From positions 1-34,720 of the forward strand of contig JAKQPD010000419.1 in the NCBI GenBank assembly GCA_029564935.1: a stretch of DNA of 34,720 nt. Reading direction: 5' to 3'. The notes beneath the pieces were generated by a model. The model was not told the origin of the DNA and did no database searches. It saw nothing but the letters and a program-made list of their open reading frames with translations. Positions 7,334 through 34,712 of this stretch are shown here, piece after piece; within the stretch, counting starts at the first letter, position 1, and every line of letters begins with the position of its first letter. The translations under genes were made by a program, and so were the position numbers. This DNA comes from Bacteroidota bacterium (GTDB lineage: Bacteria; Bacteroidota; Bacteroidia; Bacteroidales; VadinHA17).

Positions 7334-7590
7334 TTCGGGAATATAAATTATTCATTTTACCACATAGTGTGCAACCTTAGAGAACTCAGGAACATCAGCT
7401 ATAATAGCTCCTGCCCTTCTTGCCACCCCTTGCCCCCAGGGGGGTGCTCAGACTCAAAAGTCCTGCCGAAGCGACAGCGCAGGCAGGGATTTAGGGGTGA
7501 GTTATATAGTAGGATCACAAAGGTTATCACAAAGGAACATAAAGGAGTACAAGGAGTTAAGTATTCTTATAAAATAAACGGCTTATAAAC
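7334..7590. repeat. Intergenic region with a GC-rich palindromic repeat
   Basis: This gap between two minus-strand peptidase genes holds no convincing gene. About 7424-7500 carries C-runs and G-runs ending in GGGATTTAGGGGTGA, the same motif seen at 10149-10178 and 11244-11340, and a small CCTGCC/GGCAGG stem at 7462-7487. From 7513 to 7556 there are degenerate CACAAAGG-type repeats. Confidence 0.55.
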
Positions 7591-9970: not shown

Positions 9971-10148
9971 GCATCAGATTATCAGGCATTAACAATAATA
10001 TCATGAATGTTTATTTTCAAGGTCCGGGAATCCATATCGTTTAAAGTAACGATTATTGAATGACAATATTTTTAAATTGACAGGTAAAAAATATATAACT
10101 TGCATTATTCATGAGTTTATTTTTTCCGCTTACTCCGCCCCGGGGATT

Positions 10149-10178
10149 ACCCCCAAACCCCCTGGGGGATTTAGGGGT
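10149..10178. repeat. GC-rich imperfect palindrome (GGGGATTTAGGGGT family)
   Basis: ACCCCCAAACCCCC is followed after one base by GGGGGATTTAGGGGT, a nested near-perfect palindrome. A partial copy (AACCTCCAAATCCCCCT) lies at 10242-10258, and related copies are at 7424-7500 and 11244-11340. All are between genes. Confidence 0.7.
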
Positions 10179-10373
10179 GGATTTCGGTTTGCAGAGATGG
10201 AGGCAGGAGAAAGAAAACCGATAGGTGTGTAAATGTAGAACAACCTCCAAATCCCCCTGATAACTGGGTAAAAAAATGATTTTCGGGTTTCTGTTGAAAT
10301 ATATATTTATCAAAATAAATTCTCGTTTCTTGTTAAAGTTTATGAATTAATCTGGATAACTTGCACCCCGGTA

Positions 10374-11174: not shown

Positions 11175-11405
11175 TAGGATAAGAAATTCACAATTAAACA
11201 TGGATTTAAAAACTCGTAAGATACTCTGGCAACTTATGTTATTTACCCCCAAACCCCTCGGAGGATTTTACCCCCCATACCCCCAAGGGAGGCCTTAAGT
11301 AACCGGAACATTAAGTCCCCTTTTGGGGGATTTAGGGGTAAAAGAAGCTGTAGGATTGATAATATTTAAAATACTACTGGTTAGTAATAATATAAGTGAT
11401 GAAAA
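11175..11405. repeat. Intergenic GC-rich palindromic repeat between activase and hypD
   Basis: The 231-bp gap carries a large copy of the C-run/G-run repeat at 11244-11340: TTACCCCCAAACCCCT at the left and GGGGGATTTAGGGGTAA at the right, with a second C-run/G-run pair between. It may form a hairpin that separates or tunes expression of the two genes. The last 60 bp before hypD are AT-rich; no exact TAnnTTTG box was found. Confidence 0.65.
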
Positions 11406-13784: not shown

Positions 13785-13840
13785 ATTAAAAAACGTATTA
13801 AAAAACGTAGTTAACTACGTTTTTTAATACGTTTTTTAAT
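13785..13840. terminator. Perfect 56-bp palindrome, bidirectional terminator
   Basis: The 28 bases 13785-13812 are the exact reverse complement of 13813-13840, with no loop. Each arm holds two copies of an ACGTATTAAAAA-like unit. It lies between convergent hypD and the SPFH gene, and A/T runs within the arms give U-tracts in either direction. Confidence 0.8.
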
Positions 13841-17039: not shown

Positions 17040-17355
17040 CATAGCCGTCAACTTAAGGAATATTTTAATAACTAAGACTATTGTAATTATTTGGATTATA
17101 TGTAAATAAGTTTCCCCGCCTTTTAAAGGCGGGGTGGCCGGGATTACAATATTTTGAAATGTTTACGATTTTACTTTCCCGGCCGGGGTGGTTAAAAAGG
17201 GCTTATCAAACGTGAATTTACTGCTCTAAATTAAATATACCACCCCGGCCAGAATATCCATATTTCTGCAAATTAGATAATGTTGTATTCTGGCCACCTC
17301 CCGCCAAAGCGGGAGGAAACTTTAATCCCCAGAACTTCTCAGGTTGATGGCTATG
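17040..17355. mobile_element. MITE-like palindromic element, copy A
   Basis: This 316-bp noncoding element begins CATAGCCGTCAAC and ends GTTGATGGCTATG, terminal inverted repeats with one mismatch. Inside, each half has a hairpin (17114-17134; 17297-17316), GTGGCC/GGCCAC motifs, and a perfect 12-bp inverted repeat in the centre (17181-17192 with 17239-17250, GGCCGGGGTGGT). It aligns end to end with 34387-34712. No clear target duplication flanks it, and it has no open frame of interest. It lies between convergent genes. Confidence 0.8.
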
Positions 17356-17390
17356 CCCACGTGCCTGTTCGCTCTGAGTTCTTCGATCTC

Positions 17391-17438
17391 CGCCCTCGCC
17401 CTCCGCCCTGCGCCCTTCGCCCTACGCCCTTCGCCCTC
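17391..17438. repeat. Heptamer tandem array CGCCCTN, G-quadruplex-capable
   Basis: From 17397 six consecutive units CGCCCT plus one variable base follow without a register break, after one 6-bp unit. On the minus strand, which is the coding strand of the malic enzyme, this gives GGG tracts every 7 nt right after the stop codon, which overlaps the last unit. Confidence 0.85.
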
Positions 17439-18744
17439 ACACGCAACTTATTTCCCCTATCTTCTTTATATGCTCATTGGTCCTCCGGTCGAGGCTCTTT
17501 ATATAGGCTTCCCAGTCAGAAACAGGGAATTTTGCCACACCGCTTTCAATTGCAGCTTTTGCTACTGCCGGCGCAACACATGAAATAAGCCTGGGATCGA
17601 GAGGTTTCGGAATTATATATTCCTTTCCGAATAAAAGTTTATCGAGGTTATAGGCTTTCAGCACACAGTCCGGGACAGGTTCTTTGGTAAGTGCAGCAAG
17701 GGCTTTTGAAGCAGCAAGCTTCATCTCCTCATTAATAGTCGAGGCTCTTACATCTAGCGCTCCGCGGAAAATATAGGGAAATCCGAGAACATTGTTGATT
17801 TGGTTGGGATAATCCGAACGACCGGTGGCAAAGATAAGATCGTCCCGTGTTGCCATCGCATCCTCATATGATATCTCAGGATCGGGATTGGCCATAGCAA
17901 AGACAACAGGATGATCAGCCATTGTTGCAAGCATCTCTTTCGAAAGCATTTTTGCAACAGAAAGGCCAAGGAAAAGATCCGCTCCCCTTACAGCCTCAGC
18001 CAGTGTATCTATATTTCTTTCTGTGGCAAATTCCTGTTTATATTTATTGAGATCGGTCCTTTTACGGTTTATGACACCTTTGCTGTCGGCCATAACTATG
18101 TTCTCTCTTTTAACTCCGAGAGAAATATACAGTCTGGAGCAAGATATTGCTGCCGCACCGGCTCCGCAGACGACGATCTTCAGTTTGTCTATCTCCTTTC
18201 CTGTTATCTCAAGAGAATTCAGAAGGCCGGCTCCAGAAATTATCGCCGTGCCGTGCTGATCGTCGTGAAATACCGGTATGTCGAGCATCTCCTTCAGCTT
18301 TGACTCGACCTCAAAGCATTCAGGCGCCTTGATATCTTCCAGGTTTATCCCTCCGAATGTCGGGGCAATTTTTGCACAAACCTCAACAAGCTTATCGGGA
18401 TCTTTTTCATCAACCTCAATATCGAAAACATCAATATCTGCAAAGACCTTGAATAATAATCCTTTACCCTCCATGACAGGTTTTCCGGCAAGGGTTCCTA
18501 TATCACCGAGACCTAATACGGCGGTTCCGTTAGAAATAACTGCAACAAGGTTGCCTTTGGCTGTATAATTATAAGCATCCTCAGGTTTTTTCTGTATCTC
18601 CAGGCATGGAAAAGCAACTCCGGGAGTATAAGCAAGACTTAAATCGAATTGTGTTGAATAAGGTTTAGTCGGGATGACTTCAACCTTCCCGTGGCGCCCC
18701 CTGCTGTGATAGAGAAGCGCATCTTCCTTTGTGATTTTTGCCAT
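17437..18744 (-). CDS. NAD(P)-dependent malic enzyme, single-domain form
   Basis: This 435-residue enzyme oxidatively decarboxylates malate to pyruvate. The N-terminal malic domain has YTPGVA (Y39), the lysine of VMEGK (K94), and metal ligands in NLEDIKAPE (E136, D137) and FHDDQHGT (D161, D162). The nucleotide-binding domain shows [11 protein letters not shown] (194-199 loop). Many Gram-negative MaeB proteins continue into a phosphotransacetylase-like domain of about 320 residues; this one stops after the malic part ([12 protein letters not shown] and a short tail), and nothing resembling that domain follows. Single-domain forms are known, so it is probably complete. Divergent from the ROK gene; cofactor preference is not readable here. 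Confidence 0.92.
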
Positions 18745-19878: not shown

Positions 19879-19880
19879 AA

Positions 19881-19929
19881 AGTTGGCAGTAGGCATTTAT
19901 AAGTTGGCAGTAGGCAGTTGGCAGTTGGC
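19881..19929 (+). repeat. Heptamer array AGTTGGC/AGTAGGC
   Basis: Seven units of exactly 7 bp follow in register: five of the type AGTTGGC or AGTAGGC around one ATTTATA, then one more. It begins 2 bp after the ROK stop codon. Confidence 0.85.
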
Positions 19930-19949
19930 AATTACTCCTGCCCCGGAAC

Positions 19950-33060: not shown

Positions 33061-34410
33061 ATGAATAACCAGAATAATGCCAGGCAGATATTTCTGGCAG
33101 GTGTAAAAGGAGTACTTCCCGGGAAGCTGATAAACGATCTCATTTCTTTAAAAGGATCCATCCTGAAAATTGGTTACAGGAGTTATGATCTTACACAGAT
33201 ACAAAATGTTTACGTAATCGGAGCAGGGAAAGCAAGCGCTGCCATGGCCCATTATCTTGAATCTGTACTGAAAGGAAGAATCACAAAGGGTTATGTTGTC
33301 ACAAAATACGGACATGCCTGCAGTCTCAGATATATAACTGTATCCGAAGCGGGTCATCCTGTTCCGGATGCAAACAGCTATAAAGCTGCTGAGGAAATCC
33401 TGAAAATTACGGGAGCAGCCGGTGAAAATGACCTGGTTATATGTCTCTGGTCCGGTGGAGGATCTTCGCTTCTTGCTGATCACCCTGAAAATTCGTCACA
33501 GGAGGAAATGGCGAATCTCAATGATATACTCGTCAGATGCGGAGCAGATATTGCCGAAATTAATGCAGTAAGAAAACATCTTTCGAAAGTCAAGGGAGGA
33601 ATGCTGGCAACACACATTGCACCGGCATCTTTTGTAAACATTCTGCTTTCGGATGTTATCGGTGATCCTCCGGATATAATTGCATCAGGGCCTGCTGTAC
33701 CTGATAATTCGACATTTTCTGATGCCATTGCTATCATTGAAAAGTACAATCTGGCTGAAGTACTGCCCAATACGCTGGTCAGCTACTTAAGAGAGGGTGT
33801 TAACGGATTGCATCCTGAAACGCCGAAACCAGGAGCTGATGTGTTCAAAAAATCAGCACTTTTCTTTGCAGGGAGCAATAAAACAGCCCTTCAGTGTGCG
33901 CGAACGGAAGCTGAAATAAGGGGGTTTGAGACATTTATTATCACTGATTCTCTGAGGGGTGATACGGAGACTGCCTGCACTTATATTATAAATGAGATAA
34001 AAAACCGCAGGGCTGAAAATGATCTTCAAAAACCTGTGTGCCTGCTCTTTGGAGGAGAGACAACGGTCAAAGTTACCGGAGAGGGCGCCGGCGGAAGAAA
34101 CCAGCATCTTGCGCTTTATATAGCTTTTCATATTAAGGATATTCCGGGAACGACATTTCTTTCAGCCGGAACCGACGGGAATGACGGGAATACAGATTCA
34201 GCCGGAGCTGTGGTTGATTCGGATACTATCAGGAAAGCCCGGGAAAATAATACAGATCCTGAAACATACCTGAAGAATTTCGATTCATATAATTTCTTTA
34301 AAACAGCAGGGGGCCTCATCCTTACCGGCCCGACGCTTACCAACGTCATGGATCTTATGATCACCCTTATCGACCACCCTGAACCCCATAGCCGTCAACT
34401 TAAGGAATAA
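33061..34410 (+). CDS. Glycerate 2-kinase (GckA/MOFRL type), C-terminus supplied by an inserted element
   Basis: This 449-residue cytoplasmic kinase phosphorylates D-glycerate to 2-phosphoglycerate. The N-terminal DUF4147 domain has VIGAGKASAAMA, SEAGHPVPD, WSGGGSSLL and LLSDVIGDPPDIIASGP. The C-terminal MOFRL domain has FGGETTV, GAGGRNQHLAL and SAGTDGNDGNTDSAGA. The domain ends normally at GPTLTNVMDLMITLI. The last seven residues, HSRQLKE (443-449), and the stop codon come from the left end of the element at 34387, so the original tail and stop were replaced; the conserved domain itself looks intact and the enzyme should be functional. It follows the permease by 21 bp. Confidence 0.9.
   Translation: MNNQNNARQIFLAGVKGVLPGKLINDLISLKGSILKIGYRSYDLTQIQNVYVIGAGKASAAMAHYLESVLKGRITKGYVVTKYGHACSLRYITVSEAGHPVPDANSYKAAEEILKITGAAGENDLVICLWSGGGSSLLADHPENSSQEEMANLNDILVRCGADIAEINAVRKHLSKVKGGMLATHIAPASFVNILLSDVIGDPPDIIASGPAVPDNSTFSDAIAIIEKYNLAEVLPNTLVSYLREGVNGLHPETPKPGADVFKKSALFFAGSNKTALQCARTEAEIRGFETFIITDSLRGDTETACTYIINEIKNRRAENDLQKPVCLLFGGETTVKVTGEGAGGRNQHLALYIAFHIKDIPGTTFLSAGTDGNDGNTDSAGAVVDSDTIRKARENNTDPETYLKNFDSYNFFKTAGGLILTGPTLTNVMDLMITLIDHPEPHSRQLKE
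34377..34384. repeat. Target-site duplication, left copy
   Basis: CCCTGAAC here recurs at 34713-34720, exactly where the element's right end stops and the window ends. The duplication may extend to 10 bp (CCCTGAACCC), which would place it directly against the inverted repeat at 34387. Confidence 0.65.
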
Positions 34411-34712
34411 TTTAAATAAATTTTAACTACTGTAATTATCAGAATTATAGGCAAATAACTTTCCTCCCGCCTGAGGCGGGAAGGGGTGGCTGGGATTGCT
34501 AATTTTGAAGCGTTTACAATTATCCTTTTCCCGGCCGGGGTGGTTAATGTGGACTTACCAAAAGTGGACTTCTTTCTCAGAATTAAATAAACCACCCCGG
34601 CCAGAACATCTATATTTCTGCCTATTGGATGGTCTTGTAGTCTGGCCACCCCTCCTTAAAAAAAAGGAGGGGAAACTTTTGCCCACAAAACTCCGTCAGG
34701 TTGACGGCTATG
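34387..34712. mobile_element. MITE-like palindromic element, copy B
   Basis: This 326-bp element begins CATAGCCGTCAAC and ends GTTGACGGCTATG, perfect 13-bp inverted ends. It has hairpins at 34463-34484 and 34649-34672 and a central inverted repeat (34533-34544 with 34591-34602), in the same order as copy A. It has no transposase gene, so any movement would need one acting in trans. The minus-strand frame 34395-34649 is a by-product of the palindromes. Confidence 0.82.

Follow-up and report, generated by a model that had tools for sequence, protein, structure and literature searches.

MITEs and mobile insertion cassettes are moved in trans, and a MIC231-type cassette is made of IS231-type ends placed around a gene other than a transposase. 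The ends of the IS231 subgroup follow the pattern CAT-------AA--TAA and are accompanied by repeats of 10–12 bp (De Palmenaer et al., Table 1; PMC2266710). The element described here resembles the IS231 subgroup, its MITEs and MIC231 by such ends, by duplications of about 10 bp and by the YREK IS4 transposase found in a relative, and its 690-bp copies resemble MIC231-type cassettes in holding a non-transposase gene between IS ends; it differs from them by the nested palindromes which bound a Vsr-like nuclease gene or its remains. With REP, BIME and REPIN sequences associated with RAYT (REPtrons, TIRtrons; PMC3733652), it shares multi-copy intergenic palindromes, inverted pairs and a palindrome-flanked gene, but the gene flanked here encodes a DUF559 nuclease and not an HUH tyrosine transposase. 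The homing endonuclease I-Bth0305I is similar by the fold match of the predicted DUF559 structure and by the filled and unfilled states seen at one site, whereas the present cassette is bounded by palindromes, occupies many sites per genome and is found in both orientations, homing-like cleavage by its nuclease being our suggestion. Finally, the Caulobacter protein VsrA carries the same DUF559 domain and was termed Vsr-like, within the PD-(D/E)XK superfamily; it is discussed as a mismatch-repair nuclease, and "palindrom-" is absent from that text (PMC12907096).

The stretch analyzed here (the window) comprises 34,720 nucleotides from a Bacteroidota bacterium of the VadinHA17 lineage. It contains two copies, A and B, of what is very probably a two-layer mobile element, made of an IS4-family shell and of a palindrome-bounded DUF559 cassette, of which both copies would be non-autonomous, internally deleted members. 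Their inverted ends (TIRs), palindromes (P1), stems (P2) and cores, together with a third, worn relic, are located as follows.

17040-17355, no strand: copy A, whole element, 316 bp, the inner cassette being oriented with its gene on the minus strand
17040-17058, plus strand: copy A, left TIR, CATAGCCGTCAACTTAAGG, which matches every fixed base of the IS231-subgroup pattern CAT-------AA--TAA
17343-17355, minus strand: copy A, right TIR, inward reading CATAGCCATCAAC, 1 mismatch
17114-17134, no strand: copy A, left palindrome P1, CCCCGCC..GGCGGGG
17136-17184, no strand: copy A, stem P2 of the GGCCGGGA type, then GGGGTGGTT, equivalent to the 3' side of the gene in full copies
17193-17220, minus strand: copy A, core, a possible worn DUF559 coding stub (19/28; best of 60 shuffles also 19)
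17247-17295, no strand: copy A, stem P2 of the GGCCAGA type, equivalent to the 5' side of the gene in full copies
17297-17316, no strand: copy A, right palindrome P1, CCTCCCGCC..GCGGGAGG
34387-34712, no strand: copy B, whole element, 326 bp
34387-34410, plus strand: copy B, left end, which provides the last codons of the upstream MOFRL-domain ORF (33061-34410)
34463-34485, no strand: copy B, left palindrome P1, CCTCCCGCC..GGCGGGAAGG
34559-34586, minus strand: copy B, core, a putative remnant of DUF559 coding sequence (23/28, versus 20 for the best of 60 shuffles)
34649-34672, no strand: copy B, right palindrome P1, CCCCTCC..GGAGGGG
34700-34712, minus strand: copy B, right TIR, exact
340-386, no strand: worn relic, right-arm-like sequence with a single P1 palindrome (361-381), without TIR

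Both segments lie where the original prediction had placed them and display their parts in the same order, the inverted ends CATAGCCGTCAAC being recovered at both extremities of A and B with 0–1 mismatches. They also align from one end to the other (mean column identity of 83%, with some flank included; 76% by BLAST), a failure to align beyond the hairpins having been named beforehand as the result that would speak against such a family. As anticipated, folding is far stronger than in shuffled sequences, both as RNA (z = -10.0) and as DNA (z = -8.1) for copy A, and as RNA for copy B (z = -7.2). The notion that each half is an inverted version of the other did not survive, the outer arms being unequal (one long, one short) and the inner stems being of two types (GGCCGGGA and GGCCAGA). 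The supposed absence of coding capacity holds inasmuch as neither A nor B contains an ORF of at least 120 aa, with the reservation that the core of B looks like a coding-sequence stub. In the ORF whose end copy B provides, the MOFRL match stops earlier, at residue 431 of 449, and the right flank of this copy, 8 bases up to the contig end (CCCTGAAC), is identical to the first 8 of the 10 left-flank bases. No Rfam match reached gathering scores across the whole window.

The two copies first recognized are real but greatly underestimate the family. With up to two mismatches, the TIR pattern has 108 matches in the genome (4.18 Mb, 441 contigs) versus 14 for the reversed pattern, and copy B, used as a DNA query, detected at least 61 matching stretches, some of which are pieces of one copy (40 of 117 first-look candidates scored). 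In the fetched loci, 45 copies are bounded by paired TIRs from end to end, three chance pairings (642, 774, and 790 bp) being left out of this count. Eleven of these copies measure 101–190 bp and contain one palindrome, 25 measure 286–346 bp, seven 391–442 bp and two 688–690 bp; the 316–326 bp class represents 21 of the 45. Exact CCCCTCCTT..AAGGAGGGG palindromes occur 125 times in this genome, versus none for the control, and 65 of them lie inside the 45 copies. A shorter palindrome pattern occurs 5–129 times in seven other genomes (controls 0–3), with only a slight excess in two of the seven (6 vs. 2 and 5 vs. 3).

The outer layer can be compared directly with the IS231 subgroup, since the left ends of A and B match all fixed bases of its pattern and the right ends are off by one. 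Agreement between the two flanks peaks at 10 bp, with 67% identity versus 43% at 9 and 11 bp, in 44 of the 45 copies (copy B, whose right flank is cut, was omitted). On average 6.66 of the 10 flank bases are identical, versus 3.66 (sd 0.25) after a random exchange of flanks among the copies, and at least 8 of 10 are identical in 20 of the 44 copies, versus 1.4 expected; copy A has no clear target duplication (2/10). The target sites are GC-bounded, and their most frequent bases approximate CCCTTTAGGG. When 36 genomes of the genus were searched with PF01609, 29 new loci, fewer than the matches, were retrieved and checked for TIRs, and two of these, L233 and L235, possess TIR-like ends. The former, in a congener, is a complete IS of 1632 bp (1071-2702) with 17 identical terminal bases at its two ends, and encodes a transposase that scores 173 bits against an NCBIfam IS4 cut-off of 115 and has the YREK signature and a D70D138E spacing (family criterion D60-110D100-150E); its target duplication is unreadable because the contig ends. 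L235 is a partial or broken related IS with one exact TIR. Using the congener's transposase as query, we found no matching transposase in the 441 contigs of the genome under study, an empty result of this search proving nothing by itself. The single PF01609 match of this genome (L058) was rejected as a transposase with these ends because its locus has no TIR pair; TIRs are present on the same contig, some 4.5 kb from the match.

The ends, the 10-bp duplication and an IS with the same ends are thus all present, and by these sequence features the shell fits an IS4-family MITE of the IS231 type, which would most likely owe its movement to an IS4-family transposase acting in trans. The original prediction had hesitated between a MITE and a REP/BIME-like unit, and had proposed to look for further copies with the same ends and for a related full-length transposon. 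Both were found (the 45 copies and L233), so that MITE suits the shell; REP/BIME-like suits the appearance of the palindromic inside, but the likely origin of that inside from a nuclease cassette had been missed.

Evidence on the inner layer comes from copies and relatives that retain more of it. In relatives of the same genus, the same order of palindromes surrounds apparent pieces of a DUF559 gene, with PF04480 matches at several of these places. The genome under study has seven PF04480 matches at E ≤ 0.01, three of them weak, and five of the seven lie between these bookends: the three weak ones, which are remnants, and two intact ORFs of 121 aa (the 690-bp L087) and 125 aa (the 688-bp L086, with worn ends), both TIR-bounded. 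In these two copies, IS231-type ends thus enclose a non-transposase gene that A and B are devoid of. Of the four longer DUF559 genes found in this genome, two (L088 and L089) are without these bookends. The full cassette reads P1 palindrome, P2 stem, GGGGTGGTT, DUF559 gene, AACCACCCC, P2', and P1'. Among the 34 copies longer than 250 bp, we found 55 P2 stems, 52 of them with at least seven perfect pairs, of which three or four are fixed by the search pattern. Both stems were detected in 22 of these copies, always one of the GGCCAGA and one of the GGC(C/T)GG type, as in full copies; 11 copies show one stem and one shows none. The core could be parsed in 25 of 32 copies, the seven others being dropped, and in 24 of the 25 its best match to the cassette falls at offsets 79–104 of 435, 13 of the cores exceeding all of their own 60 shuffles. 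In copy A the core equals the best shuffle (19 vs. 19) and is not significant alone, although it matches the same stretch as in other copies; this copy is read as a deleted cassette because of its stems and its kinship with the other copies. From these resemblances, A and B look like descendants of the cassette by internal deletion, in minus orientation.

The protein of the L087 type is recognized by Pfam as DUF559 (3e-33), and its putative catalytic residues D56, E67, H73, and D82 are invariant in 36 sequences, D69, a further candidate, being nearly so. Its predicted structure (pLDDT 89.5) ranks first with another DUF559 protein (3hrl, TM 0.87 by target), second with a mitoribosomal protein at a TM of only 0.18, and third with the homing endonuclease domain 3r3p (TM 0.76 by target, E = 1.7e-3), which we take to be that of I-Bth0305I, with a Vsr-like fold. 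Escherichia coli Vsr is absent among the best 50 fold matches listed. A PADLOC match to DpdF was discarded as evidence for a defence role, being weak and partial (20 bits).

We then examined whether the association extends to other genera, using 80 named relatives of the L087 protein (the best 80 of 574), which come mostly from Flavobacteriia and other Bacteroidota, and also from an ignavibacterium, a cyanobacterium, a Dehalococcoidia, a Patescibacterium, and proteobacteria. Four loci were dropped and 76 had enough flank. C/G-run hairpins, defined as stems of at least 7 containing CCCC, CCTCC, CTCCT or complements and located within 200 bp of the gene, occur on both sides of 32 of the 76 DUF559 genes versus 1 of 127 other ORFs of the same loci (Fisher p 3e-15, a value that is too small because the rule was framed after seeing examples and because the loci are related). 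By side, the counts are 44 versus 7 upstream and 52 versus 12 downstream, and 12 of the 76 loci have such a hairpin on neither side. Inverted repeats of at least 13 bp also span the gene in 13 of the 76 loci, versus 0 of 425 shifted windows. Paired shell TIRs were found around none of the DUF559 genes of these named loci, the only traces being ten scattered two-mismatch TIR matches. The cassette also exists independently of the shell, related DUF559 genes being found between like palindromes without these TIRs. In five of the loci examined (L160, L166, L191, L202, and L218), the DUF559 ORF extends beyond its usual end into a tail, for example PPSPPFSKGGG, and such tails look like translated C/G-run palindromes.

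One orthologous site illustrates the alternative states of the cassette. In Pontibacter aydingkolensis (L211), a DUF559 gene lies between the convergent genes of a radical-SAM TRAM protein and of a PH-domain protein. We compared this site in that genome and 40 congeners, 40 of the 41 intergenic stretches being sorted by eye (G084 was left out). The DUF559 gene is present in one orientation in seven genomes and in the opposite orientation in three, all three confirmed by Pfam; in one of the latter (G100), the frame lacks a usual start and the DNA bears little resemblance to that of the others. Other genomes carry a palindrome pair without the gene (four), a lone palindrome (two, G068 and G089) or a remnant (one). 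The remaining stretches have a terminator-like hairpin only (six), a different ORF (14; the one tested had no Pfam match) or are not colinear (three); in G090, the right neighbour is outside the stretch. Both occupancy and orientation thus vary at a single site, and the gene-less palindrome pair corresponds in kind to the interior of the window element. In a tree of the left gene from 20 of the 41 genomes, the states are interspersed; gains and losses were left uncounted because several nodes have low support (0.16–0.61). G101 and G104, whose left genes are sisters, were considered as a clean unfilled/filled junction and set aside, their intergenic stretches being too different for exact edges.

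These data suggest a scenario in which an IS4-family shell of the IS231 type, with TIR CATAGCCGTCAACTTAAG, a 10-bp duplication and GC-bounded 10-bp targets, and without a transposase, would be mobilized in trans by an IS4-family transposase, while its content, a palindrome-bounded cassette for a DUF559 (Vsr-like) endonuclease, would have spread by itself. The nuclease probably acts on such palindromes, which would make them landing sites, and the cassette would be propagated by a homing-like break followed by repair, one palindrome being left on each side. Apart from a stub some 30 bases long, the whole gene would have been lost from the 316–326 bp class, and copies deleted in this way would then have been amplified. 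A broader version of this scenario, which we regard as plausible though still somewhat short of an even chance, is that a large unnamed class of palindrome-bounded elements relies on DUF559 nucleases as its dedicated enzymes of mobility. These nucleases would recognize C/G-run palindromes (CCCCTCC..GGAGGGG and relatives such as CCCCC..GGGGG), into which the cassette would home, and internal deletion would leave paired or lone intergenic palindromes across Bacteroidota and other phyla. If so, the system would parallel RAYT/REP with a nuclease as its driver, and the window element would represent its gutted form within an IS4 shell.

A simpler alternative is a plain IS4-family MITE whose inner palindromes are purely decorative and which, like MIC231-type cassettes, carries its passenger, here the nuclease gene, by accident. 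Mobility in this genome would indeed require no more than the TIR, the target duplication and the matching IS, and the 690-bp copies are formally IS ends plus a passenger gene. We consider this unlikely, given that like bookends surround DUF559 genes of other genera without these TIRs and that the cassette occurs in both orientations, at the Pontibacter site as well as relative to the shell, the inner part being flipped with respect to the arms in copies C1 and C129. It seems less likely again that the palindromes are ordinary REPs moved by a Y1/RAYT transposase, with DUF559 incidental. Y1 genes are present in 30 of the 36 genomes of the genus, three of them in this genome, and TIRs containing a GGGGWSAS motif flank certain Y1 genes in other organisms (PMC3733652). 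We compared Y1 genes with DUF559 genes of the genus and order. Five of the 33 DUF559 loci were dropped, as were six of the 30 Y1 loci, of which two were not entered and four had too little flank. Inverted repeats of at least 12 bp, whatever their sequence, flank 7 of 24 Y1 genes versus 9 of 28 DUF559 genes, which does not separate the two. C/G-run hairpins on both sides, on the contrary, are found for 2 of the 24 versus 11 of the 28, a suggestive difference that is not independent, the criterion having been chosen after DUF559 examples.

The elements might also be kept between genes as bidirectional terminators or RNA stabilizers, their mobility belonging to the past. Their strong folding and their position agree with such a role, none of the 45 copies lying inside an ORF and 22 of the 42 copies with ORFs on both sides lying between convergent ones (17 tandem, 3 divergent), as compared with a placement control of 12 gaps only. 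Nevertheless, the P1 palindromes have no terminator T-run by eye, the target duplications show insertion, and a separate terminator-like hairpin is kept at the Pontibacter sites (also by eye), which makes this the least probable of the explanations considered. A different question is whether the short single-palindrome copies are original empty sites for cassette insertion and not later collapse products. This has a respectable chance of being correct, if not quite an even one: the arms of these copies are the same and their single P1 is symmetrically flanked, and lone palindromes exist at the Pontibacter site too (G068 and G089). Conversely, by eye their P1 loops resemble those on one side or on the other (left or right) in long copies, as recombination between two P1 would give.

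With the two-layer element as the preferred reading, its shell is of a known kind, and the new part is that the shell carries a palindrome-bounded nuclease cassette which appears mobile in its own right; on this ground we count the whole element as a new variant. Among the literature matches listed, judged on titles and abstract starts, with subscription journals mostly outside, we found no account of such a cassette, nor, among the same matches, a partner gene named for such multi-copy intergenic palindromes. For DUF559, a small nuclease family of unclear role, a position between palindromes of this kind is here much more frequent than for its neighbours. Should this link be causal, it would provide a function for a widespread orphan domain and an origin for a common kind of genomic repeat, and both could be tested using a single small protein and short hairpins as substrates. 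The window element would further indicate how one kind of mobile DNA can lodge within another and how the two can be amplified as a unit once both enzymes are lost.

Several other repeats were observed in the course of this work. Two TIR-bounded copies of this genome (L027 and L030) adjoin a GGATTTAGGGGTGAGTTATATAGTA-like sequence on their right, as if inserted in another repeat, and a similar repeat is present in the window (compare 7486-7515). In three other copies of this genome (L026, L051, and L127), an extra layer of about 85 bp (..ATGTTGTCATTAG..) separates the TIR from the arm and is possibly a further nested insertion; related sequence is also found in L011. The window contains another kind of palindromic repeat, CCCCC..GGGGG with GGGATTTAGGGG, at 7433-7515, 10147-10268, and 11243-11343. 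Similar palindromes (CCCCCAAGGGGG) flank the DUF559 genes of L095, L102, L104, and L107, and the CCCCC..GGGGG repeats may for this reason represent a second class of palindromes belonging to this system. A perfect 28-bp inverted repeat with zero spacer (ATTAAAAAACGTATTAAAAAACGTAGTT) lies at 13785-13840, and degenerate short tandem repeats occur at 17380-17440 (CGCCCTTCGCCCT-like, by eye) and at 19880-19935 (AAGTTGGCAGTAGGC-like).
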